From: Bradyrhizobium guangdongense
GTDB taxonomy: Bacteria > Pseudomonadota > Alphaproteobacteria > Rhizobiales > Xanthobacteraceae
Length of the DNA: 64,000 nucleotides
Direction of reading: 5' to 3'
Assembly: GCF_004114975.1 (NCBI RefSeq)
Contig: NZ_CP030052.1
Span: 868,001 to 932,000 of the forward strand
Part shown: one piece after another, positions 1-16,373 of the stretch
Layout: the number at the start of each line of letters is the position of its first letter
Numbering within the stretch: position 1 is the first letter of the stretch
The notes under the pieces: model-generated
The model's input: only the letters and a program-made list of their open reading frames with translations
What the model was told of the DNA's origin: nothing
Database searches by the model: none
Position numbers and translations under genes: made by a program

Positions 1-138
1 CCCTAACCGCGAGCACACCTCCCAAGCCACCAGCGGCACCAGGATCAGCGCGATACGAGCCATCGGTATCGCGAGACCGGACGAGGCTGGGGACCGAGTA
101 TATCGCTGCAGACGGATGCCGGATGTGTCCACGCTCAT
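1..138 (-). CDS. ABC transporter permease, N-terminal part (cut by window edge)
   Basis: The minus strand is open from an ATG at 138 to the window edge, giving 46 residues that begin MSVDTSGIRLQ and run into a hydrophobic first membrane helix (ALILVPLVAWEV). The ATG overlaps the stop of the upstream permease gene in an ATGA junction at 135-138, which signals translational coupling. A second permease beside the first is common in TauC/SsuC-type importers, and this start of a first membrane span fits that, so I infer a second TauC/SsuC permease. The rest of the gene, and probably the ATPase gene, lie to the left of the window. Confidence 0.7.
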   Translation of the reverse strand, partial: MSVDTSGIRLQRYTRSPASSGLAIPMARIALILVPLVAWEVCSRLG

Positions 139-1004
139 CGATGGCTACCCACTTTTCCGTTACCGTGCCAGCGGTGAATGGTAAGTGCTTCGAGCGAGCC
201 AAACACGCCACGTTCGATAAGGAGACCGATCAGGGCCAGGCATACGATGCCGACGAACATCGTGGATACGTCCATATAGGAACGCGCCGCGAATATCATG
301 AATCCGAGGCCATGGGTCAACGCAGCTAGCATTTCGGCCGCGACCAGCGTGCGCCACGAATGCGCCATTCCAAGCTTCAGCCCCGAGATCAGCGCCGGCA
401 GCGCACCGGGTAACAGCACACGCCGAAAGATATCAAACCGGCTTGCGCCCATGCTGCGCACGACCCACAAGGAGTGTCGGCCGATTGCGCGCACGCCCTG
501 GATAGTACTGTACAGAATCGGAAAGAAGGCACCGAGGAAACAGACAGCAATGATCGTGATATCGCCTTGACCGAAAATGACCAGGAAGATCGGAGCCCAG
601 GCAACTGCCGGTAGCGGCAGTAACAGGCTCAGGAGTGGGGAAGCAATCAGATAGGCCGTCCTGTTGAGGCCCAGGAAGAGGCCCATTGGGATGGCCAGCA
701 CGCATGCCAGAGCGAACGAACTCAGCGCACGCCACAAACTAACGACAATATGCGTCAGCAATATGCTCTTGGCGGGATCGGCTGGATCAAGCAGCACCCA
801 CGCGCGCCGCGCGATATTTGATGGCGAAGGCAGGATCGTCGCATTGATCCAGCCGAGACGTACCGTTGTCTCCCATATTAACAGGAAGACGATGATTGGC
901 AGCGCGAACAAGAATGCCGATGCCGCCCCGCGGTACAAGATGCTACGCAGCCTCTGCTCGTCGGCAACACCCGCGAACGGCGCCGACGGCGTCGCGTTAG
1001 ACAT
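135..1004 (-). CDS. ABC transporter permease, TauC/SsuC/NrtB type
   Basis: Inner-membrane permease of an importer for small organic anions (the taurine/sulfonate/nitrate/pyrimidine-precursor group). From the ATG at 1004 it has 289 residues, normal for the family, with about six membrane helices and the cytoplasmic EAA loop near the C-terminus (RSMGASRFDIFRRVLLPGAL), which docks on the ATPase. A start upstream at 1052 is possible, but it would overlap the binding-protein gene, whose stop lies 10 bases before the chosen ATG. It belongs to an operon with the FAD enzyme, the binding protein and a second permease. The substrate cannot be read from the sequence. Confidence 0.85.
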   Translation of the reverse strand: MSNATPSAPFAGVADEQRLRSILYRGAASAFLFALPIIVFLLIWETTVRLGWINATILPSPSNIARRAWVLLDPADPAKSILLTHIVVSLWRALSSFALACVLAIPMGLFLGLNRTAYLIASPLLSLLLPLPAVAWAPIFLVIFGQGDITIIAVCFLGAFFPILYSTIQGVRAIGRHSLWVVRSMGASRFDIFRRVLLPGALPALISGLKLGMAHSWRTLVAAEMLAALTHGLGFMIFAARSYMDVSTMFVGIVCLALIGLLIERGVFGSLEALTIHRWHGNGKVGSHR

Positions 1005-1014
1005 GATGGAGCCC

Positions 1015-2010
1015 TTAGTTGGTAGATGACGCGAGTTTCGCCGCTTCCTCATAGAATTGATTGCGCACGAGGCTCTTGAAGTCCGGAATGTTGGGAATCT
1101 TTCCGGCCGCCTTCATAGACTCGGCAACCGGCATGAGCTCGTCGGTCATCGCGTCGGTCAGCTTTGGATCGACGTTGATCCGCGTCAAGGCAAGCTCCAG
1201 CGCCTTTGGATCGATGTCCACGCCCTGCTTGCTGATATCGGCTGCAACCTTGCTGGCGGCATCGTCCGGTTGCGTCTTCATGTACGTGCCGGCATCGATC
1301 AACGTGGCAAGATATCGCGCCACGGCCTCGGGATGCTCATCAGCAAACTTGCGGCGCACCAGCACAAGGTTCGGCGATTCACTTACGCCCTTCATCGACT
1401 GAATACGCTTTACCACGCCCATCGTCTCGCCAATCGCAACATGCGGCTCCCATGCCACTGCAGCGTCGACAACACCTTGCTGCACGGCGGCTCGCAGGTC
1501 CTCAACCTTCATATTGACGATCTGGAAGTCGCCTTCCTTCATCCCGTTCTTGTCTAAAAAGACACGGAAAGTGCTGAAAGAGCCGGATCCGGCAACCGCG
1601 CCGATCTTCCTTCCTTTGAGTTCAGCCACCGCTTTGACAGATGAATGGTTCGCGACAATTACGCCGTAGCGATCGCCCCCATACTGATCGGCGGCAATAA
1701 TGTAGAACAGATTGGGCTGCATCGCAGCCATAGTGATTAGTCGACCTGAGCCTCCGTTGCCGATATCGATTTGCCCGGCGACAAACGCCTTGAGTATTTC
1801 GCTTCCAGAGCTATAGCTCCCGATGTCAACCTTAAGGTTGTACTTTGCGCCCCAATCCTTGGTGCGATAAACGTCGTCGGTTGGAACGGCTTGCAGACCT
1901 ATCTTTATTGTCAGCGCATCTTTGGACGTGGCGTGCGCTGGAATCAGCATCACGCAGGATGCCACAACAAATGCTACACGACGCAACTTGTTTTGGATTG
2001 AGCGAGCCAT
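1015..2010 (-). CDS. ABC transporter periplasmic substrate-binding protein, SsuA/TauA/NrtA-like
   Basis: Exported solute-binding protein of 331 residues. A signal peptide occupies about the first 29 residues: a basic start MARSIQNKLRR, a hydrophobic core and an AHA-type cleavage site. The mature part has the features of the NMT1/SsuA-like fold: GSEILKAFVAGQIDIGNGG near residue 70, and the VEDLRAAVQQGVVDAAVAWEPH segment that closes over the ligand in sulfonate, nitrate and taurine binders. A strong ribosome site (GGGAGG) precedes the ATG. The gene is 54 bases after the FAD-enzyme gene and 10 bases before the permease, so it delivers ligand to that permease. Ligand identity is unknown; an organic sulfonate or carboxylate is an inference from family and neighbours. 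Confidence 0.85.
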   Translation of the reverse strand: MARSIQNKLRRVAFVVASCVMLIPAHATSKDALTIKIGLQAVPTDDVYRTKDWGAKYNLKVDIGSYSSGSEILKAFVAGQIDIGNGGSGRLITMAAMQPNLFYIIAADQYGGDRYGVIVANHSSVKAVAELKGRKIGAVAGSGSFSTFRVFLDKNGMKEGDFQIVNMKVEDLRAAVQQGVVDAAVAWEPHVAIGETMGVVKRIQSMKGVSESPNLVLVRRKFADEHPEAVARYLATLIDAGTYMKTQPDDAASKVAADISKQGVDIDPKALELALTRINVDPKLTDAMTDELMPVAESMKAAGKIPNIPDFKSLVRNQFYEEAAKLASSTN

Positions 2011-2064: not shown

Positions 2065-3573
2065 TCAGGCCGCTGAACGGCTCTTGCTTGCAGCGACTGC
2101 CGCAGCAGCGCTCTCACCTGCGATCTTCCCGAATACAGCGCCTGAAGTGAGCCCCGTGCCACCTGGATAGTTATGATAGAACAGCCCCCCGACCAGCTCT
2201 CCAGCTGCGAACAAGCCGGGAATCGGAAGGCCGGCTGTATCCTGCACCTGACCGCTCTGGTCAATCTTGAGTCCACCGAATGTGAAGGTGACACCGCACG
2301 TGACGGCATAAGCCTCGAATGGTCCTGTATCAATCGTGTTGGCCCAATGGGACTTGCGCGGCGAACTCTCCGCGGAGCGGCCATCTTTCGCATTCGGGTT
2401 GAAGGGAACGTCCTGCCGCACCGATGCGTTAAATTCAGCGACGGTCTTGAGAAAGGCGTTGCGATCAACGCCTTCGAGTTGGTCGGCGAGACCCTCCAGG
2501 GTATCCGACGTAATCTTGGTGATTTGCCGGATCCTGTATTCGTCGCGCAAAAGGTGATGCACCTTAGCATCGAATACCTGCCAAGCGAACTGGCCGGGTT
2601 GCGCTAGGATTTCGCGACCATACTTGGCATAGGTATAATTGCGAAAATCGGCTCCCTCATCAAGGAAGCGTTGGCCTCGGGAATTGACCATGATGCCGAA
2701 TGGGTAGCTGTGCTTCTGGTAGGCATCCCCTACTGCGAGATCGCCGAACGCCGGAGCATTTTGGTCCCAGCCGACGGCATGTGCTCCGGACCAATGTCCA
2801 CATGGCATTGCACCAATCGCAAGCGCCATTTGGATTCCAGCGCCGGTATTGAAGCGTGTGCCACGAACTTTCGCCAGGTCCCAGTTTGGTCCGAGATACC
2901 GCGCGCGCATTTCCGTATTAGACTCGAAGCCTCCGCACGCCAGGATGACAGCATTTGAATGCAGATCGCGCTCCTTGCCTTGATGCCGGACGCGAACTCC
3001 AACGACCCCGCTATTGTCATTGATCAAACTGACCGCGGCAGTTTCGTAAAGAAACTGGATACCCTTCCCTTCCGCGGACTCTAGCAGCATGTCCACGAGA
3101 CCGGGACCACCACCCCACACTTCCACACTGAGCCCACCCCAGAATTGGAACCGTCCGTTCACTTTGTAGGCTTGCCGCCCATGACTAGTTTGAAACCTAA
3201 CGCCTTGCTCTCGCATCCACCGAAGCGTCGGCAAGCTGCGCTTGACTAAAATCTCGCATAAGTCAGGATCGGTCCTGAATTGCGTCACGCGAAACATGTC
3301 ATCGAAAAATTGGTCCTCGGTGTAAGTGCCGAAATCAGTATTGGCTAACGTATCGGGATTGATGTCCGGCACTACGCTTAGCACGTCCTCCACACCATTG
3401 AAGACGTATCGCATGGCGCCCGCCGTATAGGTCGAGTTCCCTCCCCGCTCGTCCCGAGGCGCCGCCTCAAGCATGAGGACAGTCGCGCCATTATTGCTGG
3501 CGGATATGGCCGCACAAGCGGCAGCATTTCCTGCCCCTACCACGATGACGTCAGCGTCGAATTCACGAGGCAT
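2065..3573 (-). CDS. FAD-dependent dehydrogenase, tricarballylate dehydrogenase (TcuA)/fumarate reductase flavoprotein family
   Basis: Cytoplasmic flavoprotein of 502 residues that probably oxidises or reduces a carbon-carbon bond next to a carboxylate. The N-terminus is a classical FAD Rossmann fold (ADVIVVGAGNAAACAAISA, residues 8-26, followed by an acidic residue at the end of strand 2, LMLEAAPRDERGGNS). The C-terminus has the second FAD contact (GLFAAGELVGGLFYHNYPGGTGLTSGAVFGKIAG). Overall it resembles TcuA, which turns tricarballylate into cis-aconitate; the family also covers succinate and steroid dehydrogenases, so the substrate is not settled. It is first in the operon with the ABC importer. 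Its promoter region holds the operator shared with the PrpD-PrpF-ComA operon 13 kb away, which carries aconitate-type enzymes. Confidence 0.8.
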   Translation of the reverse strand: MPREFDADVIVVGAGNAAACAAISASNNGATVLMLEAAPRDERGGNSTYTAGAMRYVFNGVEDVLSVVPDINPDTLANTDFGTYTEDQFFDDMFRVTQFRTDPDLCEILVKRSLPTLRWMREQGVRFQTSHGRQAYKVNGRFQFWGGLSVEVWGGGPGLVDMLLESAEGKGIQFLYETAAVSLINDNSGVVGVRVRHQGKERDLHSNAVILACGGFESNTEMRARYLGPNWDLAKVRGTRFNTGAGIQMALAIGAMPCGHWSGAHAVGWDQNAPAFGDLAVGDAYQKHSYPFGIMVNSRGQRFLDEGADFRNYTYAKYGREILAQPGQFAWQVFDAKVHHLLRDEYRIRQITKITSDTLEGLADQLEGVDRNAFLKTVAEFNASVRQDVPFNPNAKDGRSAESSPRKSHWANTIDTGPFEAYAVTCGVTFTFGGLKIDQSGQVQDTAGLPIPGLFAAGELVGGLFYHNYPGGTGLTSGAVFGKIAGESAAAAVAASKSRSAA

Positions 3574-3637: not shown

Positions 3638-3677
3638 ATGGTAGTAGCATGAGATACTATCCTTCAACAGATGTCAA
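3638..3677 (-). promoter_or_regulatory. Promoter and operator of the FAD-enzyme/ABC operon (site A)
   Basis: On the plus strand 3638-3661 reads ATGGTAGTAG-N7-TACTATC, an imperfect inverted repeat (GGTAGTA against GATAGTA). On the minus strand a perfect TTGACA sits at 3677-3672, with the operator covering the expected -10 region, about 65 bases before the start codon of the FAD enzyme. The same half-sites with the same seven-base spacer, again next to TTGACA, occur at 16394-16434 before the PrpD operon. The layout suits a repressor that blocks RNA polymerase. Confidence 0.65.
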
Positions 3678-3703
3678 CTGCTGCAATTGTTGAGGAAACC
3701 CTG

Positions 3704-4453
3704 ATGAAGGTCTTAGTGCCGGTAAAGCGGGTGGTCGATTACAATGTCAAGGTCCGCGTCAAGGGCGATGGATCGGGCGTTGAACTCGCCAACGTCAAGA
3801 TGTCGATGAACCCCTTCGACGAAATCGCGGTTGAGGAAGCGCTGCGCCTGAAGGAAGCCGGCAAGGCGGCCGAAGTCGTGGTGGTCTCCATTGGACCGGC
3901 GCAGGCGTCGGAGACGATCCGCACCGGTCTTGCCATGGGCGCCGATCGCGGCATCCTGGTGAAGGCCGAAGGCACCGTCGAGCCGCTCGCCGTCGCCAAG
4001 ATCCTCAAGAAGGTTGCAGAAGAAGAGCAGCCCGGCCTGATCATTCTCGGCAAGCAGGCGATCGACGACGACAGCAATCAGACCGGCCAGATGCTGGCTG
4101 CGCTGCTGGGCTGGTCGCAGGCGACGTTTGCCTCGAAGCTCGAGGTCGAAGGCTCCGACTTCAAGGTCACCCGTGAAGTCGACGGCGGCCTGCAGACCGT
4201 CAAGCTCAAGGGACCGGCGATCGTCACCACCGATCTGCGTCTCAACGAGCCGCGCTATGCCTCGCTGCCCAACATCATGAAGGCCAAGAAGAAGCCGATC
4301 GCGGAGAAGACCGTTGCCGATTACGGTGTCGACGTCACTGCGCGCCTCGAAGTTTTGAAGACGGCTGAGCCCGCGGGCCGCAAGGCCGGCGTCAAGGTGA
4401 AGGACGTCGCCGAGCTGGTGTCGAAGCTCAAGAACGAAGCCGGGGTGCTCTGA
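3704..4453 (+). CDS. etfB: Electron transfer flavoprotein beta subunit
   Basis: Small subunit of the ETF that accepts electrons from acyl-CoA and related dehydrogenases and passes them to ETF-quinone oxidoreductase. The start at [14 protein letters not shown] (ATG 3704) gives 249 residues, the usual size; the frame is open a little further upstream to 3671, but that extension is not conserved-looking. The AMP-site signature is present ([22 protein letters not shown], about residues 120-140). It is followed directly by etfA with overlapping stop and start. The very even GC-rich codon use differs from the AT-richer accessory genes around it and resembles core-genome rhizobial genes. Confidence 0.93.
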
Positions 4454-5391
4454 TGACTGCGTTGTTGATTGCTGAACACGAACAGGAGGTCCTCAAGGAC
4501 TCCACCAACAAGGCGCTGACCGCGGCGTCCCAGCTCGGCGGCGACGTCCACGTGCTGGTCGCTGGCGGCGGGCAGGGCACCAAGGCTGCGGCCGAGGTCG
4601 CCGCGAAGCTCGCTGGTGTTGCCAAGGTGCTGGTCGCCGAAGGCGAGGCCTACGCGCACGATCTGGCCGAGCCGCTGGCCGCGCTGATCGTTTCGCTGGC
4701 CCCGTCCTACGATGCGATCGTCGCGCCCGCGACCTCGCGCTTCAAGAACGTGATGCCGCGCGTCGCGGCGCTGCTCGACGTCATGCAGGTCTCGGAGATC
4801 ACCAAGGTGGTCGCGCCCGACACCTATGAGCGTCCGATCTATGCCGGCAACGCCATCCAGACGGTGAAGTCGAAGGACGCCAAGAAGGTCATCACGGTCC
4901 GCACCTCGACCTTTGCGGCGGCAGCTGCCGGTGGCAACGCGCCGGTCGAAAGCGTCGCTGCCGCGGCCGATCCCGGCCTGTCGACCTTTGTCGGTGAGGA
5001 AGTTGCCAAGAGCGACCGTCCCGAGCTGACCTCGGCCAAGATCATCGTCTCTGGTGGCCGGGCCATGCAGAGCCGCGAGAACTTCGCCAAATACATCGAG
5101 CCGCTCGCCGACAAGCTGGGCGCCGGCGTCGGTGCCTCGCGTGCGGCGGTGGACGCCGGCTATGCGCCGAACGACTGGCAGGTCGGCCAGACCGGCAAGG
5201 TCGTGGCCCCCGAGCTCTATGTCGCCGTCGGCATTTCCGGTGCGATCCAGCATCTGGCCGGCATGAAGGACTCCAAGGTGATCGTCGCGATCAACAAGGA
5301 CGAGGACGCGCCGATCTTCCAGGTGGCCGATTACGGCCTGGTCGCCGACCTCTACCAGGCGGTTCCGGAGCTGACCGACGCGCTCTCATAA
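4453..5391 (+). CDS. etfA: Electron transfer flavoprotein alpha subunit
   Basis: Large ETF subunit, 312 residues, carrying the FAD. The C-terminal FAD-binding domain is clear: [13 protein letters not shown] (about 199-211), [41 protein letters not shown] and [14 protein letters not shown]. The start codon overlaps the stop of etfB, so the two subunits are translationally coupled. After the gene the chromosome-like sequence ends within about 230 bases at an IS91-like element. In many bradyrhizobia I would expect a hydroxyacyl-CoA dehydrogenase gene next, so the element may have cut the original neighbourhood; that is inference. Confidence 0.93.
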
Positions 5392-5626
5392 CCCCGCTCC
5401 ACAAGCTTGGTGAGGCGACCGAGAAACGCCTGCAAGTTAAAGTCTGCTGGTGTCTCAGAACAGCCAAACGCCATCCGCGACCACCTCAAAGGCCTCTCGC
5501 TCCTGCGCAGGCCACTGTTATATCGACGGCGCCTAGCACTACTTTGGCAGATTGTTGATTTTGCCGCGTTTTATAGGATTGAACGAAGCCGCTGGCGCGG
5601 CATGTAGGGAGGCATAGCAAGGATTG

Positions 5627-5680
5627 CCTCCTGTCTGAGAGGATTGCGGGTTTTCGAAGCCCAACCCTTCAGACAGGAGG
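5627..5680. repeat. Inverted repeat covering the recombinase ribosome-binding site
   Basis: CCTCCTGTCTGA at 5627-5638 is repeated inverted and perfectly at 5669-5680 (TCAGACAGGAGG), with a 30-base loop. The right arm contains the AGGAGG ribosome-binding site, 7 bases before the ATG of the tyrosine recombinase at 5688. In RNA the hairpin would hide that site. It may also mark the left end of the IS91-like element. Confidence 0.75.
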
Positions 5681-5687
5681 TTTTCCG

Positions 5688-6548
5688 ATGGCTGAGATCA
5701 GCCCACTTCGCCGCCGCATGATCGAGGACATGACGGTCCGCAATCTGTCACCGGCGACGCAGCAATCCTACCTCAACGCCGTAGCGAAGTTGAGCCGGTA
5801 TTTCGGTCGCTCTCCCGACCGCCTTGACCTGGAGGATATCCGTGCCTTCCAGGTTCATCTGGTGGCGACGGGGATGTCCTGGCCGGCGCTGAACCAGATC
5901 GTGTGCGCGCTGCGGTTCTTCTACGGTGTGACGCTTGGTCATGACACCGTTCCGGAGCGCATCGCCTATGCGCGCCAACCGCGCAAACTTCCGGTCGTGC
6001 TGAGCGCCGACGAGGTCGTGCGCTTCCTGGAAGCAGTCCCGAGCCTGAAGAGCCGTACCGCGCTGACCACGGTCTATGCCGCCGGACTACGCGTATCGGA
6101 ACTGGTCCTCTTGAAGGTTGTCGACATCGACAGCCAACGGATGCTGATCCGGGTCGAGCACGGGAAGGGCGGCAAGGACCGTTACGTTATGCTCTCGCCG
6201 CAGCTTTTGAGGATTCTGCGGACGTATTGGCGGCTCACTCGGCCAAAGCGATGGTTGTTTCCCGGCCGCGACGACGAGCGTCCGCTCGTCCCGAACGTGC
6301 TGCACGCCGCCTGCCGTTCAGCTTGTGCGGCGGCCGGCTTGAGCAAGTCGGTGACGGTGCACACGTTGCGGCACACATTCGCGACCCATCTCCTGGAGAG
6401 CGGGGCCGACGTGCGCATCATCCAGGTGCTGCTCGGCCATGCCAGCCTGGCCAGCACGGCGCGCTATACCCAGGTCGCCACCAAGACCATCAGCAATACG
6501 CCAAGTCCGCTGGACCGGCTCCACCTGGAGGTCGTGCCGCCCGGCTGA
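5688..6548 (+). CDS. Tyrosine recombinase/integrase of the IS91-like element
   Basis: DNA strand-exchange enzyme of 286 residues. An N-terminal SAM-like core-binding domain (about 1-95) precedes the catalytic domain with the expected tetrad: Arg in AAGLRVSEL (about 130), HTLRHTF (His-x-x-Arg, about 228-231) and the nucleophile Tyr in GHASLASTARYTQ (about 262). The AGGAGG ribosome site lies inside a hairpin. It sits 9 bases before the IS91 transposase and reads as one operon with it. IS91 relatives often carry such a recombinase-like gene; its role in transposition is not settled. Confidence 0.88.
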   Translation: MAEISPLRRRMIEDMTVRNLSPATQQSYLNAVAKLSRYFGRSPDRLDLEDIRAFQVHLVATGMSWPALNQIVCALRFFYGVTLGHDTVPERIAYARQPRKLPVVLSADEVVRFLEAVPSLKSRTALTTVYAAGLRVSELVLLKVVDIDSQRMLIRVEHGKGGKDRYVMLSPQLLRILRTYWRLTRPKRWLFPGRDDERPLVPNVLHAACRSACAAAGLSKSVTVHTLRHTFATHLLESGADVRIIQVLLGHASLASTARYTQVATKTISNTPSPLDRLHLEVVPPG

Positions 6549-6557
6549 GCGGGCGCC

Positions 6558-7736
6558 ATGGCTCCGGTTCTGGAAGTGGCGGATATCTTCCGCCGCCACG
6601 GCGAAGTGTTTCGACAAGCCCGTGCCGAGCATCTGGGCCGCGTCGAGCGGCGCGTCATGGGCGCGATCACGGCATGCCGGACGGCTGTGCTCGGCGGCCA
6701 CGTCGAGCAGTGCGATGACTGCGGCGCCACACGCATTGCCTACAACTCCTGCCGCAATCGGCATTGCCCGAAGTGCCAGGGCGCGGCGCGCGCGCAATGG
6801 CTCGCCGAACGGCAAGCTGAACTCCTTCCCGTACCGTATTTCCACGTCGTCTTCACCATGCCGGCCCTCGCCGGAGGGATCGCCTTCCAGAACAAGGCCG
6901 TCGTCTATGCCATCCTGTTCCGCTGCGCAGCCGAAACGCTCACCACCATCGCAGCCGACCCCAAGCATCTCGGCGCTCAGCTCGGCGTGACTGCCGTCCT
7001 CCATACCTGGGGCCAGACCCTGCAACACCATCCGCATATCCACTGCGTCGTGCCGGGCGGTGGACCCTCGCTCGACGGCACACGCTGGGTCGCTTGCCGG
7101 CCCGGCTTCTTCCTGCCAGTGCGCGTCCTCTCCCGGCTGTTCCGCCGCCTGTTTCTGCAAGAGCTGCAAGCTGCCTACGCGGCTGGCCAGCTGAGCTTCT
7201 TTGGCGCTCTCGCCCATCTCACCGATCCCGCTGCATTCGCCGCGCGCCTTAATCAACTTCGACGGACCGACTGGGTCGTCTATGCCAAGCCACCATTTGG
7301 CGGGCCCGAACAGGTGCTGGCTTATCTCGGCCGCTATACGCACCGCGTCGCCATCGCCAACAGTCGGCTGATCTCGCTTGCCGACGGCAAGGTGAGCTTT
7401 CCCTGGAAGGACTATCGGCAGAATCGTAAAGCCAAAGTGATGACGCTTGATGCCGATGAGTTCATTCGGCGCTTTCTGCTACACACCCTGCCGGACGGCT
7501 TCCATCGCATCCGCCACTATGGCTTCCTCGCCAATGGCGGACGCAACGATAAAATCGCTCTCTGCCGTCAACTCCTTGCTGTCCGCAACGCGCCGACTGA
7601 TCAAGAAGCCGGCGACGATCCCCTCACCACATGTCAGATCCCCGTCTGCCCGCATTGCGGCGGCACCATGCGCCGCGTCGATGTCGTCCCGCGAGCCCGT
7701 GCCCACGACCATCCGTTTCGTTGTGATACGTCATGA
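6558..7736 (+). CDS. IS91-family (HUH, Y1/Y2) transposase
   Basis: Rolling-circle transposase of 392 residues. The N-terminal zinc-binding domain has CDDCGATRIAYNSCRNRHCPKC (about 53-74). The metal-binding HUH motif is HPHIHCVVPGGG (about 156-167). The nucleophilic tyrosine region is YLGRYTHRVAIANSRL (about 255-270). A second CPHCGGTMRR zinc knuckle is near the C-terminus. The length fits the family, whose members are about 400 residues, and no frameshift is visible. It is coupled to the recombinase gene upstream. Confidence 0.92.
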   Translation: MAPVLEVADIFRRHGEVFRQARAEHLGRVERRVMGAITACRTAVLGGHVEQCDDCGATRIAYNSCRNRHCPKCQGAARAQWLAERQAELLPVPYFHVVFTMPALAGGIAFQNKAVVYAILFRCAAETLTTIAADPKHLGAQLGVTAVLHTWGQTLQHHPHIHCVVPGGGPSLDGTRWVACRPGFFLPVRVLSRLFRRLFLQELQAAYAAGQLSFFGALAHLTDPAAFAARLNQLRRTDWVVYAKPPFGGPEQVLAYLGRYTHRVAIANSRLISLADGKVSFPWKDYRQNRKAKVMTLDADEFIRRFLLHTLPDGFHRIRHYGFLANGGRNDKIALCRQLLAVRNAPTDQEAGDDPLTTCQIPVCPHCGGTMRRVDVVPRARAHDHPFRCDTS

Positions 7737-8146
7737 CCAGCGCCTGCACCATCCACCTCTTCTGTGATCACCTTCGCGGTGGCAACGTCCGAAGTCGCCG
7801 TGGCCGCACTCGTCTCCGAACACCCGGCCAATCGTTCGGCCACGCATCCCAGCGCAGCAAATCGCTCGCTGGATCGCGCCCTTGGCCCGATCAATCCGGC
7901 CGCTCACATCCGATGAACGTCTCGCCGACGCCCGGCGACCACAGGCGCGCCTTCCCCGCAGCCGCACCCGCTGCACTATTCCCATAGCGCCCACAACTCC
8001 GCAGCTTCGTTCAATCCGGCTTCTATGAGGTCGCACCCACGACCGAGCGCGCGGCTCGCGCCTGCCACGCGACCTCACAGAACCCTCAAGATTCCCGAAT
8101 CAATTTTTCAATGATTCATGGGTGGTCGGCTCTTGGAGGGCTGACC

Positions 8147-9120
8147 ATGCCAGGATGGGAAGACGAACTCGAACGCTGGTTGATGCCGTTCTTGGACCGG
8201 CTGGGTCATAAGACCCGGCAGCGGATGTGTCCTCTGTATGTTGCGGGATTGATCGGTCCCGGCGATCGTAAGAGCGTTCAGCCGATGGCGGAACGCCTTG
8301 CCACCAGCACCTACGACCAGTTGCACCATTTCATTGCGGACGGTGTCTGGGACGCGACGCCGCTGGGGACAGAGTTGCTCAACCAGGCGGATCGACTTGT
8401 CGGCGGCAGGGCTGCGGTGCTGGTTATTGATGACACCTCACTTCCCAAGAAGGGTGAGCGCTCGGTCGGTGTTGGGGCTCAATACGCCTCGGCACTCGGT
8501 AAAACGGCAAATTGCCAGACACTGGTGTCTTTGACGCTTGCGAGCGGCGAAGTGCCCGTGATGGTCGCGTTACGTCTCTTTCTGCCTGACAGTTGGACAA
8601 GCGACGTATCTCGTTTGAAGCGCGCTCGCGTGCCAGTCGAACATCGAACGCCACGGTCCAAGCCGGAGATTGCTTTGGCCGAGATTGACCGCGCGATAGC
8701 AGCCAACGTGCGCTTTGGATATGTGCTGGCGGTGCAGGATACGGTCTCAGCGTACCGTTTCGACTAGGGCTAACAGAGCGCGGGCTGGTCTGGGCTGTCG
8801 GAATCCCTCGGCACCTGAAAGTGTACCCGGTCGATGTGAAGCTCATTTGGCCGATTACCAAAGCCCGCGGGAAACCACGAAAGCACCACGTGCCTGATAT
8901 CTTGTCGATTGGCGCAGAACAAATGCTGGCCAGCGCCAAATGGAAAGCCGTGAGCTGGCGCAGCGGGACCAAAGGTCGGCTGACAGCCCGCTTTGCTGCT
9001 CTCCGTGTCCGCACCGCCGACGGCCCTCCTCAGCGGATTTGGGATAAGGGTCAGCAGCATCTCCCGGGCGACGAAGCTTGGCTCATTGGCGAGCAACGTG
9101 CCTCAGGGGATCGGAGGAGG
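8147..9120 (+). pseudogene. IS701-family transposase, frameshifted and truncated
   Basis: The first frame (8147-8767) reads MPGWEDELERWLMPFLDRLG and contains the first DDE aspartate region (VLVIDDTSLPKKG). A one-base deletion near 8732 (expected LADAGYG, seen as GCG-GTGCA) moves the homology into the next frame, where it continues as GLSVPFRLGLTERGLVW and HLKVYPVDVKLIWPITKARG to about 9120 (DEAWLIGEQRASGD). There the similarity stops before the C-terminal catalytic glutamate region. A GGAGGG ribosome site precedes the ATG. The copy is dead: it has both an internal frameshift and a missing C-terminus. Confidence 0.8.
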
Positions 9121-9173
9121 TTCACATTCCCGGGACTTGAGGACGTCGCAAAAGCTCGACGTCGCGCTAGTCC

Positions 9174-9470
9174 TTATCCTCGTCGCGTTTCCTGCGACGG
9201 ATCTGGGATCAGCTTGAGGCGTATCGCCTTGATGATACCCTGGACGCGGGTCCTCGTAGCAAGCTTTCGCAGGGCGTTCTTATGATAATTGACCGTATTC
9301 TCGCTGATCTTCAGTTCCCTCCCAATTGCCCAAGACGATCTCCCTTCTGCCGCGAACTGCAGGCATTGTTTTTCGCGCTCGGATAGCTTTATTGACGTAT
9401 CGTGGCTCATGTTTGAGGCGCTCCGTATCAAGATCAGATCGCAATGCCGAGACAGCAAGCCCCATGCCAA
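9174..9470 (-). pseudogene. LuxR-type helix-turn-helix fragment (quorum-sensing regulator C-terminus)
   Basis: A 98-residue frame whose residues 27-88 are a GerE/LuxR DNA-binding domain: IKLSEREKQCLQFAAEGRSSWAIGRELKISENTVNYHKNA, shown here only as the region, followed by KLATRTRVQGIIKAIRLKLI. The style (NTVNYHKNALRKL) is that of acyl-homoserine-lactone LuxR proteins, which normally have about 170 further N-terminal residues. None are visible upstream in any frame. I call it a truncated gene; a stand-alone helix-turn-helix protein is possible. The right-hand end of the broken IS701 copy abuts its 3' side. Confidence 0.6.
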
Positions 9471-11141
9471 TGGGGGGTTGAGAAAATCAGGCGGGAGGAA
9501 ATGATTGAGAAAGGGCGGACGATCGATTTGCGTCCCCTTAGCGGTCGAAGCATTACGACATAGGTCGGAAGCTCAACGTCCCCTTTGCAGCATCGGCTAC
9601 AATGATCGATATCGATCAAGAAGAGCGCGGCCTAGAACGGGACCGTTTTGCTCTCTTCTTCTGCGGCGACAGCGCGGTGTGTAACTGAACAGTGTCCGCT
9701 GCGTTCACGAGGATATGAAAGCTCCCTACCACGATACGTGCTGGAAGATGCGTCGCACCATCATGAGCAAGTCGCGAACTCGGATCGTCTCGAGGCTGAC
9801 CAGAGCTAAGACTGCTGAGTCGATTAGGATTACCGGTTGCCGAATGGATGCGCCTTTTTGACTTTCTGCCACCCAGATCCACCATCCTGTCATCCGCCGC
9901 GATCGGCTCGCGGCGGAAATACGCCATGCTTGGGTCATAGGGCATATGGTGCAGCTGCATAAGGCCGGATGCTTATAGTAGGGGTAGACGTTCGCGCCCG
10001 TGGTCCACAGCACGATCCTGGCGTCGACCCGGTCCGCAAGCTCACAAACCTGCCAAAGCGCGATTGCGCCGCCTCCTGGTCCGGCTTAAGTTGCGGAAGC
10101 CGTGGAAATACCAGGAAGATTTGCTCTATTGGCTTGGCCCTGGACTTGCAATTCAGAGAAGTAGCAGGATTCTCCACCGTCTTGAGCTCGAGGTTGATGA
10201 AGGTGTCGGTTCGACGTTCGGCGAGCTCCCGTCGTGAAGTTCGACCTCGACAGCAGCGCCGCTTAGTTGGTGTAGGAAGGTCAGTGGGTTTCCTTCATCG
10301 CGTTGGCATAGACGCCGCTGAATGTCCTCCGGCGTTATGGCATGAAAGGCGCGACGTTCTCCTCACGAACTCCGAATCCGAGTAGTCGTGGATTGCCTAA
10401 AATCGCTGGTGCAGCTTTGAGTCCGGCTCGGACAGGTTGGTGCGGTCCTCGGCAAGCGCAGGTCCTTCCTTTCCGTGTAACCGGACAGGCAGACGTCGGC
10501 GATCAGTGCGGTCAGGATCTGTAAGGGTGCTTGCGCAGCCAGCGAAGCGACAGGAGCGTTGAGCAAGCGGGCGATCCTGCTTCTGGCTCTGCTCGCATCA
10601 TTATCAATGCGGAAGGGGGTTGCCGAAACCTCGAAGGTGTCTAGTGCATGCGCCCTATTGCATTGTCGTATATCCTGGCAAAGAAACCGAACCGCTTCGG
10701 CCATGGGAGGGCCGCGGGCTATCGGCCAAAGTGCGGTACCGCTGACCTCGCCCTGTCCCTTGACGGCAGCGTGAGTAAGCGCCAGCACAATGCATATGCT
10801 CCCATCGGCATTCCCATTGTTAAAACGGAAAGCAACTTCGGTTGGTCATGTGAAGCGTACGATACAATTTTTGCTGAGCTAACTCAGAGCGCAGCTGGCT
10901 TCTAAGAGCGTCTTGCGCCATTCGTCGCAGATCAAAGCATGATCGAGATCTCACATGATATCAAACGCTGGTTGCTGGTCCTGGTTTCCAAATTGCTTTA
11001 CATCTCCCGCCATGTCGACGAGTTCAGAATGTTGCGCTTCAAATCTCGCAGATCAAGCGCGTCTCATTGCGACGAGAAGCCAAAAAGCCGGAAGGTCTAG
11101 TGGCTCTGCACAGTGATTTTGACGTGTTGCGCGTCCGGCGG
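9471..11141. other. 1.7-kb stretch with no supportable gene
   Basis: Only short overlapping frames occur here. The minus strand has two patches that read slightly like coding sequence: about 9700-10060, with LWTTGANVYPYYKH followed in the next frame by MQLHHMPYDPSMAYF, and about 10430-10700. They are broken by frame changes and I do not recognise them. A decayed minus-strand gene is the most I would suggest. No RNA gene or terminator was seen. Confidence 0.4.
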
Positions 11142-11399
11142 TCAGATTAGCTCCGGCAGGCTCTTGGGATCAACGAGGACCTCGATGCTGCGGGGTATCC
11201 TTGGCTGCCGTCTGATTAGGCCAGCTCGTTCCAGAGTCAGCACCATCTGGTGAACCGAAGGCGGGCTGACGCGAAAATACTCTTGCATGTCGGTTTCCGC
11301 CGGGGCCCTGCGGTGCAGCCGCGTATAGAGGTGGATGAAGGCAAGGTATTGCCCCTGTTTGGGCGTGAAGGTTTTTGCCGAAGGACTCACGCCGGCCAT
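11142..11399 (-). CDS. LexA-type winged-helix DNA-binding protein, small
   Basis: The ATG at 11399 ([19 protein letters not shown]) gives 85 residues. The body matches the LexA N-terminal winged helix: [53 protein letters not shown], then the wing ([13 protein letters not shown]). It has no LexA protease domain. Such single-domain proteins are usually annotated as LexA- or MarR-like regulators of unknown target. It is back-to-back with the broken IS630 transposase on the other strand, so it could be a passenger of that element; that is inference. Confidence 0.7.
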
Positions 11400-11419
11400 C
11401 CGATTCAGTTGTACGTGCG

Positions 11420-12533
11420 TGCCTCGATCAAGGAAACTCAGCCAAGTCGAGCGCACCGAACTCAAGACCCTGCTCAGCGGCGGCAAGCATGCGTCCCGCA
11501 AGCTCAAGCGAGCGCAGATTTTGCTGGCTGCCGATGCCGGGGTCGGCGACGAGGAGATCGCCAGAAGTGTCGGCGTGGGCGGCTCGACCGTGTACCGGAC
11601 TAAGCGACGCTTCGTGGAACGCAATCTGGAGCGGGCGCTGAGCGAAGAGCCGCGTCCCGGGGCGGAGCGCAAACTCACGGGCAAGGAAGAAGCCTTGCTG
11701 GTGGCCACCGCCTGTGCCGGTCCGCCGGAGGGCCGTGCCCGCTGGACGCTCAAGCTGCTGGCAGGTGCGCTGGTCAAGCTCACCGAGCACAAGAGCCTGT
11801 CGCACGAGACGGTTCGGCGGCGCCTGGTCGAAAATGACCTCAAACCCTGGCGCAAGGACATGTGGTGCATTCCGCAGATCGATGGCGAATACGTCGCCCG
11901 CATGGAGGACGTGCTGGATCTTTACGCCAAGCCGTCCAATCCCGAGCGGCCGGTGGTGTGCTTCGATGAAAGCCCGGTGCAGCTCATCGGCGAGGCGCGC
12001 TAGCCAATCCCGGCCGAGCCCGGGCGGCTCAAACGTTACGATTACGAGTATCGTCGCAACGGTACGGTCAGTCTCTTCGTCCTGCTTGACGTGCATCGTC
12101 CCTGGCGCAAGGTCAAAGTCACCGAGCGGCGCGCGGCAGAAGACTACGCCCAATGCATGCGCGAGCTCGTCGACATCCATTATCCGACGCCGAGACCATC
12201 CGGGTCGTCCAGGACAATCTATCGACTCATTCTGCCGGCGCCCTCTATCAGGCGTTCCCGCCTGCCGAAGCCCGACGGATCTTGCGGCGGCTCGAGTTCC
12301 ACTACACCCCCAAACGCGCAAGCTGGCTCAACATGGTCGAGATCGAGATCGGCGTCTTGCGGGGACAGTGCCTCGATCGCAGGATCGATGACCCCAAGCG
12401 GCTGCGCCGCGAAATCGCCATTTGGGAACGCCAGAGGAATGCCGCACGCTCCCGCATCAAATGGATGTTCACGACAGACAGGGCCCGCGCCAAAATGGGC
12501 CGCGCCTATCCCGACACTTCCAAAGAGTCATAA
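11420..12533 (+). pseudogene. IS630-family transposase, broken by a stop and a frameshift
   Basis: Homology starts around 11440 ([26 protein letters not shown]) with the paired helix-turn-helix region, then reaches the first DDE aspartate ([11 protein letters not shown], about 11960). An in-frame TAG at 12001-12003 stands where the family has Gln (EAR-Q-PIPAEPGR). After PIPAEPGR the frame stays open to about 12180, where one base is missing (HYP-DAETIRVVQDN). The rest, with VQDNLSTH and the Glu region SWLNMVEIEIGVL, lies in the next frame to 12533. All three catalytic residues survive, but in a gene that cannot be read through. Confidence 0.85.
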
Positions 12534-12944
12534 TAATTGTGCAGAGACACTAGTACGGCCAGCACACTATCTGGCAAACGGGGACGAACTCGCAAAAGTT
12601 CCGCAGCTGACCGCCACCCATTGCGCGCGCAGTCAAACCGGCTGGCCGCCGCAGATTCCGAGTGCGTACGTCAGATCGTGGACGGCATGCTGCGAGAGGC
12701 CAAACCCGACAATAACACGATCTACAGCCTGGCTGGCAAGGAGATAACCACAGCGCGATCTGCCGAGCTGGCGACTAAGCCTAACGCATTCAAGCGTGGA
12801 GCACGGAATGGCGGCGACGATAGAGCACGTCGCCACCTTCATGCGCCGAGGACTCGGCCCTACGTTGCAAACAACGTCAATTTCCTGCGCGCCGCATTTG
12901 CCGTCGCTGAACTTTGTTCGCAGTGATGCTGTGACTTAAGCGTA
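12534..12944. other. Intergenic, nothing recognised
   Basis: This stretch lies between the IS630 remnant and the stop of the ComA-like gene. A plus-strand frame of 129 codons spans most of it, but it has no ribosome site, no recognisable domain and a composition like neighbouring noncoding sequence. I see no gene. Confidence 0.4.
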
Positions 12945-13742
12945 TCACTCGGCGAGAATGGAATAATTGACAGCGCGACCTATCCCGCGACGCAAACCCT
13001 CCAGTCTCAGGGCCTGCCCGGGCGCGATATTGGCAAGATTGACATCCGGGCCGAAATCCTGCAGCAGGCCGACATGTTGTTTTGGGTAGCGGTACGGATC
13101 AGCCTCAATCAAAATTCGTTCGAACCAAGGCGCGGCCGCCAGCGCCTTGAGCAGATCGGGCGCGCTTTTTGCAGCCATGTCTATCTCGGACTGCTCCACG
13201 ATAATATGGTCGACGCCTCGATTGGTTAACGAAGTGACGAGACCTTCAAGTTCTTCCATCCGCATCGGCTGCTCGGGGTTCTTACGCCCAAATTCGTAGA
13301 TAACCGAAAGCCCAAGGCGCTGAAAGCGCTCGATGAACGAAAGACGCTCGTTGTCGTTCAGCGTGATGTAATTTTCCGAAATCTCCAGAGAAGTGAAGCC
13401 GATCGAACACAGATGACTACTGAAGCGATCGATTTCGTTGCGCTGATAAGCATATTCGAACAGAATGCCGCCTGAATAGCAGTTCACTCCCGAGTCGCGG
13501 TACAGTTTGACGATCCGCTGCACGACCGGTTTTGGCAAAAGCAGTGCGTTCATCGCATAGATCTTGGCGAAGTCGATATACTCGGCCGCGCAATCAAGCA
13601 GATCGGCCACGCCTCGCTCTCCCGTCCAACCGAAGCCGTCCGGACCGTAGTCGATAACCGCTGTCATCCCTCGCTTGCGGGGTTTCCCCTGGCGCGCGGG
13701 GGGAACAAAGCCATCGTCGTGCGATTGCATCTCACTCATCAA
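12945..13742 (-). CDS. Phosphosulfolactate synthase (ComA) family protein
   Basis: A TIM-barrel enzyme of 265 residues in the ComA family, whose characterised members add sulfite to phosphoenolpyruvate to make phosphosulfolactate (coenzyme M or sulfolactate synthesis). Family landmarks are KPRKRGMTAVIDYGPD (about 21-36), YIDFAKIYAMNALLL, the YSGGILFEYA strand, LEISENYITL, VIYEFGRK, VEQSEIDMAA and ILIEADPYRYPKQHV. It is last in a three-gene minus-strand operon, its start overlapping the stop of prpF by four bases (ATGA at 13739-13742). No other coenzyme M genes are present, so the reaction here is unknown; a carbon-sulfur bond-making or bond-breaking lyase is the natural guess. Confidence 0.75.
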   Translation of the reverse strand: MMSEMQSHDDGFVPPARQGKPRKRGMTAVIDYGPDGFGWTGERGVADLLDCAAEYIDFAKIYAMNALLLPKPVVQRIVKLYRDSGVNCYSGGILFEYAYQRNEIDRFSSHLCSIGFTSLEISENYITLNDNERLSFIERFQRLGLSVIYEFGRKNPEQPMRMEELEGLVTSLTNRGVDHIIVEQSEIDMAAKSAPDLLKALAAAPWFERILIEADPYRYPKQHVGLLQDFGPDVNLANIAPGQALRLEGLRRGIGRAVNYSILAE

Positions 13743-14941
13743 GCTATCTTTCTGGCCAGAGCAGCGGCCAGCTCCTCAAACTTCCGTCGGCGAATATACA
13801 CGGCCCCATCCATAATGATCCGTGCCGTACGCTCGATTTGCGCGCTCTCGATGATCGGGCCACTTGCTCCCTGAGCGATACTCGAGGCTACTCGCAGCAC
13901 GCCGCTCGGATGGCCAAGTCGGACGTTCTGCAACGGCTTGCCGATGGCTGCCGCAACTACCGAGTTCGGGACCGAGCAGGCCACTGCGGTACACACCGCA
14001 CCGGTGACGGCGAGCGCCTTGTGGGGGCGCTGCATGGCGAGCTGCCGAACGCAGATATCGATGTCCGATGCCGCGACCTCATGGCCACCAATAGCCGAAT
14101 AGGACCTCGGCGGCGAGACCATTATTACACGCGGAATGTTTGGGCTTTTGGTGCGGGCCTCGGCTTGATCTGTCACCAGACCGAGTTTAACAGCCGCCCA
14201 TCCCCTAACCTGCTCCAAGCGGGACATTAGCATTTCGTTGATGCGTAGCGCGTCCGGCGACTCGGTGCCGACTGCCCCGACATCGACCGCGTTGACAAAA
14301 ACGAATGGTGTGGCCGCGTCGATCAGTGACACTTCAATGGTCTTGCCATCGATCGATATAGCTTCGCGAGCGCGCCCCGTGGGCAATAGCTTGCCTGATA
14401 CGGCGCCGGCACAATTGCCGAAATCTAAACGGATCGGCGCCCCCGTATCGGGCACACCGGCGATTGCGCAGTCGCCGTCTGACAGCGGCTCACCATCGCG
14501 AACCGGAATGCGGGATACCACGACCTGCCGAGTATTGGTGTTATATATCCGCACAATCGTTTCTGGCTCGACCGCATCGATCAAACCGCGACGGATAGCG
14601 AACGGCCCGACCGCGGCAAGCATGTTACCGCAGTTGCCACCTGTCGAAACCGAAGGATTATCAATGCCGACTTGGTAGAATGTATACTCGATCTCGGCAT
14701 CCGGGCGCGACGACAACTTCACGACGGCGGCCTTGCTGGTCAGTGGATCTGCGCCACCGATACCATCGATCTGGCGGTCGTCCGGCGATCCATACGCCGC
14801 GAGCAGGACGGCAGCCCGTTGGACTTCATCCTGCGGCAGATCGTCGTCCAGGAACACGCCCCCCCGACTGGATCCCCCGCGCATAAATGTGCAGCGGATC
14901 GGGATTTGATCTCCGCCGCCCGCATTCATTGCGGACGGCAT
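13739..14941 (-). CDS. PrpF-family isomerase (aconitate isomerase/oxalomesaconate tautomerase type)
   Basis: The enzyme has 400 residues from the ATG at 14941 (MPSAMNAGGGDQIPIRCTFMRGG); the frame extends further upstream but into the PrpD gene. PrpF proteins have a diaminopimelate-epimerase-like fold and move double bonds or change cis/trans geometry in tricarboxylates. Landmarks are FMRGGSSRGGVFLDDDLP near the start, GIGGADPLTSKAAVV, SVSTGGNCGNMLAAVGPFAI with the conserved Cys, and RLGHPSGVLRVAS near the end. It starts 19 bases after the PrpD stop and overlaps the ComA-like gene, so all three should be co-transcribed from the promoter at 16.4 kb. Confidence 0.85.
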   Translation of the reverse strand: MPSAMNAGGGDQIPIRCTFMRGGSSRGGVFLDDDLPQDEVQRAAVLLAAYGSPDDRQIDGIGGADPLTSKAAVVKLSSRPDAEIEYTFYQVGIDNPSVSTGGNCGNMLAAVGPFAIRRGLIDAVEPETIVRIYNTNTRQVVVSRIPVRDGEPLSDGDCAIAGVPDTGAPIRLDFGNCAGAVSGKLLPTGRAREAISIDGKTIEVSLIDAATPFVFVNAVDVGAVGTESPDALRINEMLMSRLEQVRGWAAVKLGLVTDQAEARTKSPNIPRVIMVSPPRSYSAIGGHEVAASDIDICVRQLAMQRPHKALAVTGAVCTAVACSVPNSVVAAAIGKPLQNVRLGHPSGVLRVASSIAQGASGPIIESAQIERTARIIMDGAVYIRRRKFEELAAALARKIA

Positions 14942-14960
14942 GACCGGATCGACGTTTGCG

Positions 14961-16373
14961 TTATGCTGCTCGAAGCGACGGCCCATTATCCACCACGGCA
15001 GCTTGAGGAACGACATCGGCCTTGGGTTGCTTTTCGAGCGACATCATGAGGTCGCTGATTCGACGTGCTTGCTTCTCTTCGATCACCATAGTCGTCATCG
15101 CCAAGAACTTCGCTTCCAGCTCGTCGGAGGTGAGAGGATTGGACGGTTCACCCTTCGGCTCGAGGGAGCTGCGAGTCACGACTTTGCCGTTCTTCAGCGC
15201 GATGTCGATCTGAGCCTGACGTCCGCCCAGTCCATAGGCCGCCTCCTTCTGCAACTCGATCTTCCCCATGCCCTCGTGGACAGCCGCCTGCTTGTAGCCG
15301 TCCCAATATTCCTTCAGGCCATTCTTTCCGGAGGCCAACGCCAGCGCGATGCTAAATTGCGTGCTGCCCATCGCCGCATTGAGGTTGGTAACTTTTGGCT
15401 TTGACGCCTGACGAATCGCAAGCTCGCTCATATGAACGGTAACACGATCGACATTGTCGAGACGCACGCCGTCGAGCGCGAACGCATCCTGCGCGAGGTC
15501 GATCGGGCCGTGGGCATATCGGCACGCCGCATGTGGCTTGAATCCGACTTCCATGATCGCGAAATGCTTGCCGAGGTTGTCTTGCAAGTCGTCGAGGCGG
15601 ACACTGTCCGTGAAGGCATTCAAGAAGCCCTCGCGCGACTCTAGCACTTTCTTAGGACCGCTGAAGCCGCGGCTCGCCATGATCGCCGCGAGAACGCCGT
15701 TAAAGGCGGACTTACCGGGGCTAAAGGGTTTTGCCATGCAAGGATCGTCGAGATATGACTGAATGCCCGCCGACTGCATGCAAGCCAATCCGATGGCCCA
15801 GGCGATCTGTTCAGCATTGCAGCCCAGAAGCTTCGCGCACATAGCAGCAGCACCGATGGCTGAAACGGTTCCAGTCGTGTGATAACCGCGCTGGCGGTGA
15901 CCGGGATTGATCGCTTTCGCGATTCGGATTGCCACGTCATAGCCTGCAACAACCGCCGTGAGGACGTCTTTACCTGAAGCGCCCGACAGTTCCGAAATTG
16001 CAAAGGCTGCCGGAACGAGAACGGAACCGGCCTTTATCAATCCAGAGCCATGCGCGTCGTCCAGCTCGATTCCGTGCCCCATCATCGCATTAACGAGCGC
16101 AGCATTGGGCGTCGGCACTTTCATGCCATGGCCAATGATGGTGCTCTGCGGCGTGCCGGCCCACTCTTTGACAAGCTCGATGACTTTATTTGCTGGCTCG
16201 CTGATAGCGGATGCAGCAATTTCATTACCAACGCCATCGCGCAGGATCAGCTTCGCCTTGTTGCTGACGTCAGCGGGAATTTCCTCGAACTTGAGCAAAG
16301 CAACGTGCTCAGCGAAACGCATCGTTAGGCCGATGAGGGCCTCAGATTGCTGGGGGGTCGACACAGAGGTCAT
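14961..16373 (-). CDS. MmgE/PrpD family protein (2-methylcitrate dehydratase/aconitate decarboxylase type)
   Basis: The ATG at 16373 (MTSVSTPQQSE) gives 470 residues with a GGAG ribosome site 8 bases before. Family features are DGVGNEIAASA near residue 50, GHGIELDDAHGSGLIKAGSVLVPAA (about 105-130), GYDVAIRIAKAINPGHRQRGYHTTGTVSAIGAAA, KPFSPGKSAFNGVLAA and KPHAACRYAHGPID. Members dehydrate 2-methylcitrate or act on cis-aconitate and other polycarboxylates. It is the first gene of the operon with PrpF and the ComA-like enzyme and lies directly behind operator site B. True methylcitrate-cycle function is unlikely because prpB and prpC are absent here. Confidence 0.87.
   Translation of the reverse strand: MTSVSTPQQSEALIGLTMRFAEHVALLKFEEIPADVSNKAKLILRDGVGNEIAASAISEPANKVIELVKEWAGTPQSTIIGHGMKVPTPNAALVNAMMGHGIELDDAHGSGLIKAGSVLVPAAFAISELSGASGKDVLTAVVAGYDVAIRIAKAINPGHRQRGYHTTGTVSAIGAAAMCAKLLGCNAEQIAWAIGLACMQSAGIQSYLDDPCMAKPFSPGKSAFNGVLAAIMASRGFSGPKKVLESREGFLNAFTDSVRLDDLQDNLGKHFAIMEVGFKPHAACRYAHGPIDLAQDAFALDGVRLDNVDRVTVHMSELAIRQASKPKVTNLNAAMGSTQFSIALALASGKNGLKEYWDGYKQAAVHEGMGKIELQKEAAYGLGGRQAQIDIALKNGKVVTRSSLEPKGEPSNPLTSDELEAKFLAMTTMVIEEKQARRISDLMMSLEKQPKADVVPQAAVVDNGPSLRAA

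Follow-up and report, generated by a model that had tools for sequence, protein, structure and literature searches.

Two halves of a possible catabolic regulon for substituted succinates on a Bradyrhizobium megaplasmid

The genes considered here have described relatives in several separate systems. TcuA and TcuB belong to the tricarballylate utilisation operon tcuABC of Salmonella (PMC10468695, in the part drawn on here). Known substrates of MmgE/PrpD-family enzymes share a 1,4-dicarboxylate core, which the members that bind it hold with His, Asp/Glu, His, Lys and Lys; one such gene sits with ict-ich-ccl and mcd in a cluster for itaconate and methylsuccinate, and for the Bacillus subtilis member IRG1 another function is probable (all from extracts of PMC12290011). 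PrpF-family isomerases take part in the AcnD/PrpF branch of the 2-methylcitrate cycle (extracts of PMC5690661), and iminodisuccinate epimerase (2hp0), again of the MmgE/PrpD family, acts on a substituted succinate. Relatives of these enzymes, and of the phosphosulfolactate synthase ComA (1qwg, 1u83), occur in two groups in a 64,000-nucleotide stretch of the Bradyrhizobium guangdongense genome (contig NZ_CP030052.1, positions 868,001 to 932,000, or C2:868001-932000), which as a whole we call the window.

One group encodes a TcuA-like flavin adenine dinucleotide (FAD) dehydrogenase and an ATP-binding cassette (ABC) importer, the other an MmgE/PrpD protein, a PrpF-family isomerase and a ComA-like enzyme; a copy of the same palindromic operator precedes each. 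We put at about even the chance that the two are halves of one catabolic regulon, split on a probable megaplasmid, that serves to import and degrade some substituted succinate (a tricarballylate-class branched polycarboxylate). That its role is catabolic is likely. At the level of sequence, the case is built on a joined form of the operon elsewhere, on a shared and conserved operator, and on the protein families themselves. The genes named in an earlier, sequence-only reading of the window are all full open frames (open reading frame list, Pfam and NCBIfam), about where that reading had placed them:

135..1052, minus strand: permease of the ABC importer (BPD_transp_1; Pfam/NCBIfam)
1015..2010, minus strand: periplasmic substrate-binding protein, NMT1/SsuA-like; resembles taurine/sulfonate binders, under the curated cut-offs
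2065..3573, minus strand: TcuA-like FAD dehydrogenase; above the NF006130 cut-off, below that of TIGR02485
3638..3663, no strand: palindromic operator between tcuA and etfB (pattern scans)
3704..5391, plus strand: etfB-etfA, electron-transfer flavoprotein genes, possible regulon member (similarity to the copy on contig C1)
5688..12926, plus strand: mobile-element genes and fragments, namely an integrase-type recombinase, an IS91-type transposase, and DDE_5 and DDE_3 transposase pieces (Pfam, six open frames of the stretch)
within 5688..12926, minus strand: small LuxR-type open frame (Pfam)
12945..13742, minus strand: ComA-like TIM-barrel enzyme without the RESG motif (profiles, alignments, structure model)
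13739..15016, minus strand: PrpF-family isomerase, start codon uncertain; closest solved relative 3-methylitaconate isomerase
14961..16373, minus strand: MmgE/PrpD-family protein, Lys replacing the catalytic His (profiles, alignments)
16394..16419, no strand: palindromic operator overlapping the -10 box of the prpD promoter (pattern scans, promoter scan)

Beyond the window's left end the first operon goes on with genes for a second permease and an ATPase (C2 ~866473-868138).

The gene set here and in other genomes

In Bradyrhizobium erythrophlei (G053; G and L numbers are our handles for genomes and loci) eight genes are contiguous: prpD-prpF-comA-tcuA-binding protein-permease-permease-ATPase. 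Those from prpD to the permeases lie in L013, and the DNA match to the window's genome runs on through the ATPase. The comA and tcuA frames are 60 bp apart there; in the window the gap is filled by etfBA and mobile-element DNA, 9.4 kb in all. The same genes are thus joined without insertions in another genome, and this arrangement, together with the operator in other genera, upholds the proposal of the sequence-only reading that the two operons are one regulon, split here. Cereibacter johrii and Paracoccus versutus likewise have two units, comA-tcuA-ABC and prpD-prpF, each with its own operator, and two Alcaligenaceae also show such a split.

Loci with ComA-like genes were found by two peptide patterns, GGILFE[YH]A and [VI][IV]YEFGRK—so that the sharing of those motifs is by selection, and residue conservation is counted below on listed homologues instead—and their genes were called by homology-weighted calling and tblastn. 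This yielded 75 loci, of which 74 are counted here, L091 being a partial second match on one contig. Eighteen carry PrpD or PrpF (PrpD in 15, PrpF in 17); among these, a TcuA-like or TcuA gene is present in 16, TrmB in 11, ABC genes in nine (L034 and L061 through the ATPase only, at 47-48%) and a TctC gene in four, and L034 and L088, which lack a Tcu gene, stop at a contig end. Over all 74, a TcuA-like or TcuA gene occurs in 38, and three loci have a TcuA-like gene alone. In a tree of 73 rows (without L004-L007 and L023, and without L034 and L085, in which no ComA frame was called) the PrpD/PrpF rows need three label changes and several branches are long; a single origin of the PrpD/PrpF-bearing loci is possible.

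Two other groupings recur around ComA-like genes. Nineteen Burkholderiales loci, among L021-L046, L086 and L089, pair the ComA-like and Tcu genes with a class II aldolase, without PrpD or PrpF; glnE and genes for a class IV aminotransferase and a glycosyltransferase recur in the same stretch. Rhodospirillaceae-type loci (L078-L081, L083 and L084) have a ComA-like gene beside a malate/lactate-type dehydrogenase, whose best model is sulfolactate dehydrogenase (L084 falls under its cut-off), and five of the six have a coenzyme A (CoA)-transferase gene as well.

The genome, 8.44 Mb in two contigs, includes C2 as a contig of 982 kb with a RepC gene above its model's cut-off; C2 is probably a megaplasmid of the repABC type. 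Over 60 kb around the cluster, genome G036 is 100% identical, and G036, G484 and G545 each encode a 100% identical MmgE/PrpD protein on a contig C2. That protein occurs in five of 146 genomes of the genus (E <= 1e-150) and ComA-like relatives of at least 86% identity in three of another count of 100 genomes, the window's genome being included in both; a B. zhengyangense record (L017) has the same gene set. Few genomes of the genus thus have the cluster, which looks mobile. In the open-access literature, no operon of this gene combination was found under phosphosulfolactate synthase with PrpF, sulfonate, tricarballylate or itaconate, in agreement with the earlier reading, which knew of no described pathway with this combination.

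The shared operator and its candidate regulator

The operator is the palindrome ATGRTAGTA-N8-TACTATCAT, and its near-identical copies at 3638-3663 and 16394-16419 precede the tcuA-like/ABC-importer genes and prpD-prpF-comA. With up to three mismatches the pattern is found at two places only in the window (five rows, from both strands and one shifted register), against a mean of 0.01 matches in the shuffled window, and with up to two mismatches these same places are the only ones in the genome. The operator common to both operons, as first noticed by eye of a model in the letters alone, is therefore real. Its symmetric consensus, with three mismatches, picks out one place in the genome, C2:852629, where 18 of 20 positions agree upstream of an arylmalonate-decarboxylase/maleate-isomerase-like gene, and a fourth, weaker site in the same genome (16 of 20) precedes the gene pair for a CaiB CoA-transferase and a CitE-like lyase.

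Twenty-four chosen loci, searched at 16 or more of 20 positions, gave 36 operator rows for 30 distinct sites (L010, the window and L017 share sites, and shifted registers are repeats too). L091 is among these 24. Every row lies ahead of a gene from the reference list, at most some 450 bp away; the list takes in TctC relatives at low identity. Markov shuffles of the same loci, three per locus and one for the window, gave no match, and 54 other loci, 900 kb together, gave five. The pattern was derived from the sites themselves; what is independent is their position, not their existence.

The prpD promoter reads TTGACA-16-TATTAT (11 of 12 positions), and its -10 box falls within the operator at 16394-16419. 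A TTGACA stands on the tcuA side of the other operator, and for 13 of the 22 site/direction pairs examined a TTGAC precedes the operator at a short distance. The geometry of an operator over the -10 box suggests repression. As the only TrmB homologue in the genome, the product of the TrmB-family gene at C2 860374-861303 is the likely regulator, predicted to bind these sites; across the loci, as expected of a TrmB-type regulon, the recurring operator is found in linkage with TrmB-family genes. The protein scores below the TrmB equivalog cut-offs (61.9 against 650), and LysR genes also lie near the cluster, so the regulator is one that we infer. All in all, the shared operator marks a real and conserved regulon, probably repressed by the TrmB-family protein.

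Two further stretches touch on this regulator. Outside the window, to the left of the arylmalonate-decarboxylase/maleate-isomerase-like gene (C2:851830-852591), lie ABC importer, carboxyltransferase-domain, LamB/YcsF and biotin carboxylase genes, and this stretch may also belong to the TrmB regulon, as another arm. The Alcaligenaceae locus L091 (~4966-10650) has a second gene of TrmB type, which shares 67% identity with that of the window's genome, has two operator copies and adjoins TctC, amidase and isochorismatase-family genes; the same type of regulator may control other pathways too.

The enzymes and the steps they might catalyze

The MmgE/PrpD protein falls far below the TIGR02330 cut-off for 2-methylcitrate dehydratase (35.4 against 458 bits), and its closest solved relatives, B. 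subtilis 'IRG1' and iminodisuccinate epimerase, are far from that enzyme, which is ruled out on both counts. The dicarboxylate-binding residues, positioned by reading alignments to solved relatives, are H105, E108, H170, K220 and K284 of the 475-amino-acid open frame, and they are kept in all 120 of the homologues listed, out of 968 matches. In the same 120 the catalytic His (His103 of cis-aconitate decarboxylase, H99 of iminodisuccinate epimerase, His102 of methylsuccinate isomerase) has become Lys: K119 of the open frame, or K114 of the 470-amino-acid protein. The Lys is found in the window, in G053 and in each of the 15 PrpD proteins that the 74 loci encode, whereas L078-L081 have four MmgE/PrpD proteins of more distant kinship that keep the His. 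The hydratase of 2-methylcitrate-dehydratase type that had been read from the window thus gives way on its score and on its active site alike. Iminodisuccinate epimerase has the family and, as proposed here, a substituted-succinate substrate in common with this protein, but it has His where this one has Lys, and here a ComA-like enzyme is encoded alongside. Much the same can be said of the itaconate/methylsuccinate cluster: an MmgE/PrpD enzyme for a substituted succinate would be common to both, and both have genes for a CoA-transferase and a CitE-type lyase in the surroundings, whereas the catalytic His is Lys here and ComA-like and PrpF genes are not in that cluster as described in the extracts of PMC12290011.

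The PrpF-family protein matches 3-methylitaconate isomerase (3g7k) best among structures, at 321 bits against 248 for PrpF, and lies below the cut-offs for PrpF 2-methylaconitate isomerase (TIGR02334, 278.1 against 440.55 bits) and 4-oxalomesaconate tautomerase (NF033377, 348.5 against 440 bits). Thus an isomerase of the PrpF family is shared with the AcnD/PrpF branch, so far as the extracts of PMC5690661 describe it, but the PrpF and PrpD models both stay under their cut-offs, and acnD, prpB and prpC are not among the identified neighbours.

The TcuA-like protein exceeds the NF006130 cut-off (591.1 against 369 bits) and misses that of TIGR02485 (279.8 against 372.55 bits). It has no TcuB beside it; the one TcuB homologue found in the genome adjoins another TcuA homologue, on C1. 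It is 38% identical to the TcuA of L053, a locus in which TcuA (760 against 369 and 668 against 372.55 bits) and TcuB (690 against 524) replace the TcuA-like gene. The same replacement is seen in five of the 74 loci, L053 and, with relatives of 54-74% identity, L059, L063, L067 and L037, the cut-offs having been checked and exceeded for the L053 pair alone. A TcuA-family FAD dehydrogenase is therefore common ground with Salmonella tcuABC (the consulted part of PMC10468695); MmgE/PrpD, PrpF, a ComA-like enzyme and a TrmB-family regulator are the differences, as is the lack of TcuB in the window's operon. Because the genome has its own TcuAB on C1, the enzyme on the megaplasmid probably acts on another acid, one that resembles tricarballylate.

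The genes etfBA are 91% identical in nucleotides to the copy on C1 (EtfB 99% in amino acids), and this similarity sets in at 3703, a single base ahead of the ATG and 40 bp beyond the operator; no similarity to the region upstream of the C1 copy was found before etfBA. Since the match starts at the etfB ATG, close behind the operator, etfBA may be a regulon member and not a mere insert, and a plain insertion unrelated to the operator was rejected on the same ground. No promoter toward etfBA was seen in a promoter scan or a -35 check, and among the scanned loci etfBA occurs only in the window's own cluster and in L017. The sequence-only reading had etfBA and mobile elements separating the halves: the mobile genes in 5688-12926 are confirmed as such, while the place of etfBA as a mere separator is doubtful.

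The ComA-like protein matches Pfam ComA at 188.5 bits and reaches half the cut-off of the phosphosulfolactate synthase equivalog (TIGR03849, 140.3 against 280 bits). A structure model (mean predicted local distance difference test, pLDDT, 83.7) has the predicted TIM-barrel fold of the family, with 29% identity to 1qwg over the fold and a template-modelling (TM) score of 0.75. The Lys aligned with 1qwg residue 137 (K154) is kept in 119 of the 120 homologues listed, of 536 matches; the RESG motif, common to 1qwg and 1u83 as read from their alignments, is found in none of these 120. RESG might bind phosphate. Fold and lysine are thus shared with the synthase, but RESG is missing, a GPDxxGW segment has been added, and on cut-off and motif a phosphosulfolactate synthase was rejected. 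ComA enzymes add sulfite to phosphoenolpyruvate (PEP) by conjugate addition. Because itaconate is PEP with CH2COO- in place of phosphate, a ComA relative acting on non-phosphorylated, itaconate-like acids is chemically plausible.

The theme common to three independent families would be a substituted succinate, and a polycarboxylate that undergoes dehydrogenation and a double-bond shift, as first suggested, fits the homologies. From these we infer the class of substrate and an order of steps. The TrmB-family protein would repress by binding the operators over the -10 box. The ABC importer would take up the acid, and the MmgE/PrpD protein might act on the carbon beside a carboxylate of the 1,4-dicarboxylate core, by epimerization or isomerization, using Lys where His is the rule. 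The TcuA-like flavoenzyme would then form a C=C bond, its electrons going to TcuB or, here, to electron-transfer flavoprotein, so that etfBA could pass them into the respiratory chain. PrpF would shift the double bond, and the ComA-like enzyme might add or eliminate a small group across it via a metal-stabilized enolate, on a non-phosphorylated substrate. In this lineage, the CoA-transferase and CitE-like lyase behind the operator-like site may complete the cleavage.

Tentatively, and with the balance somewhat against it, the pathway may be an undescribed one, with a ComA-like subfamily of non-phosphate type as the lyase or hydratase for substituted succinates alongside the His-to-Lys MmgE/PrpD enzyme, possibly on a sulfonated substrate with release of sulfite. 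The locus provides a regulon that is defined and open to test for ComA-like proteins entered in databases as phosphosulfolactate synthase, though the window's member misses the cut-off, and likewise for an MmgE/PrpD branch named 2-methylcitrate dehydratase in the sources, its catalytic residue altered. If the pathway is as proposed, a large number of these sequences carry the wrong name, and a new use of enolate chemistry, on acids without phosphate, could be assayed directly.

Competing readings and neighbouring genes

Several observations weigh against a single regulon for a tricarballylate-like acid. The genome has a TcuAB pair of its own on C1, 59 and 52% identical to that of L053, and plain tricarballylate therefore needs no second set. 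Nineteen of the 74 loci combine a class II aldolase with TcuA-like or TcuA, without PrpD or PrpF, and a further 34 have no PrpD, PrpF, Tcu or class II aldolase in the DNA at hand; the ComA-like subfamily is therefore not confined to this pathway, although many loci are short contigs, which makes gene absence uncertain. No operator reaches the threshold in six of the 24 loci (L018, L023, L037, L053, L061 and L063). Among 385 genomes of the class, with one mismatch, the operator occurs in six (the window's counted) and the reversed control in eight; the motif is thus rare, and it is placement that gives it weight, there being no excess across the class. At tcuA, by the operator 3638-3663, the promoter scan turned up nothing, and TTGAC is missing near the operator in the etfB, caiB and maleate-isomerase directions, so that for these it is the operator that argues for membership.

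It is unlikely, if less so than the other alternatives, that the substrate is a sulfonated substituted succinate from which the ComA-like enzyme, running the family reaction backwards, frees sulfite by beta-elimination. The chemistry of the family, sulfite addition to PEP, would suit this, and the binding protein and permease do resemble those of sulfonate/taurine importers; yet the binding protein misses the cut-offs of TIGR01728 (141.5 against 163.5 bits) and TIGR01729 (84.5 against 304.25 bits), and the first permease those of TauC (141.3 against 342) and SsuC (113.6 against 347), the scan having covered these two proteins of the importer. A gene for a YeiH-family (PF03601) putative sulfate exporter lies near the TrmB gene and beside a LysR gene (C2 862991-864097, or L010 10991-12097), and ahead of the joined operon of G053 there is a short stretch that matches this gene, though at 141.8 against 232.6 bits the YeiH-family product too falls short of its model. 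In four loci (Polynucleobacter and relatives) a TctC transporter gene takes the importer's place, which points to a carboxylate, not specifically to a sulfonate. A specifically sulfonated substrate, one option in the sequence-only reading, is thus not sustained, by the importer scores, by TctC, or by a ComA-like protein that fails the synthase tests.

A conversion of tricarballylate or aconitate to itaconate or citraconate, and from there through CaiB and the CitE-like lyase to pyruvate and acetyl-CoA, we consider slightly less probable still. It would account for the TcuA-like enzyme, for MmgE/PrpD relatives that include B. subtilis IRG1 and cis-aconitate decarboxylases, for a PrpF close to an itaconate-type isomerase, and for the operator-like site before CaiB-CitE, where the best CitE model is the itaconate lyase RipC. 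But that model's cut-off is missed (NF038242, 142 against 375 bits), the decarboxylase's catalytic His is Lys, and of the 18 PrpD/PrpF loci just one has CaiB at 30% identity or more and none has CitE; moreover, TcuAB is already present elsewhere in the genome, and cis-aconitate would normally go directly into the tricarboxylic acid cycle.

That the ComA-like protein is after all a true phosphosulfolactate synthase, for coenzyme M or sulfolactate synthesis, with its polycarboxylate neighbours incidental, is very improbable: the Pfam and fold matches would be expected of it, but it misses the cut-off by half, its listed homologues lack RESG, and TcuA-like or TcuA genes stand in more than half of the loci. 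That the genes are neighbours by chance and the operators alike by accident has next to nothing in its favour beyond the mobile-element genes that occupy much of 5688-12926, given contiguous orthologues in other genera and joined operons elsewhere with the same, recurring operator.

Beyond the prpD operator, at 17375-23895 of the window, lies an adjoining catabolic module with genes for a TctC binding protein, an IclR/PcaR-like regulator, an RraA-like protein and a fused hydantoinase A/B protein of 1251 amino acids.

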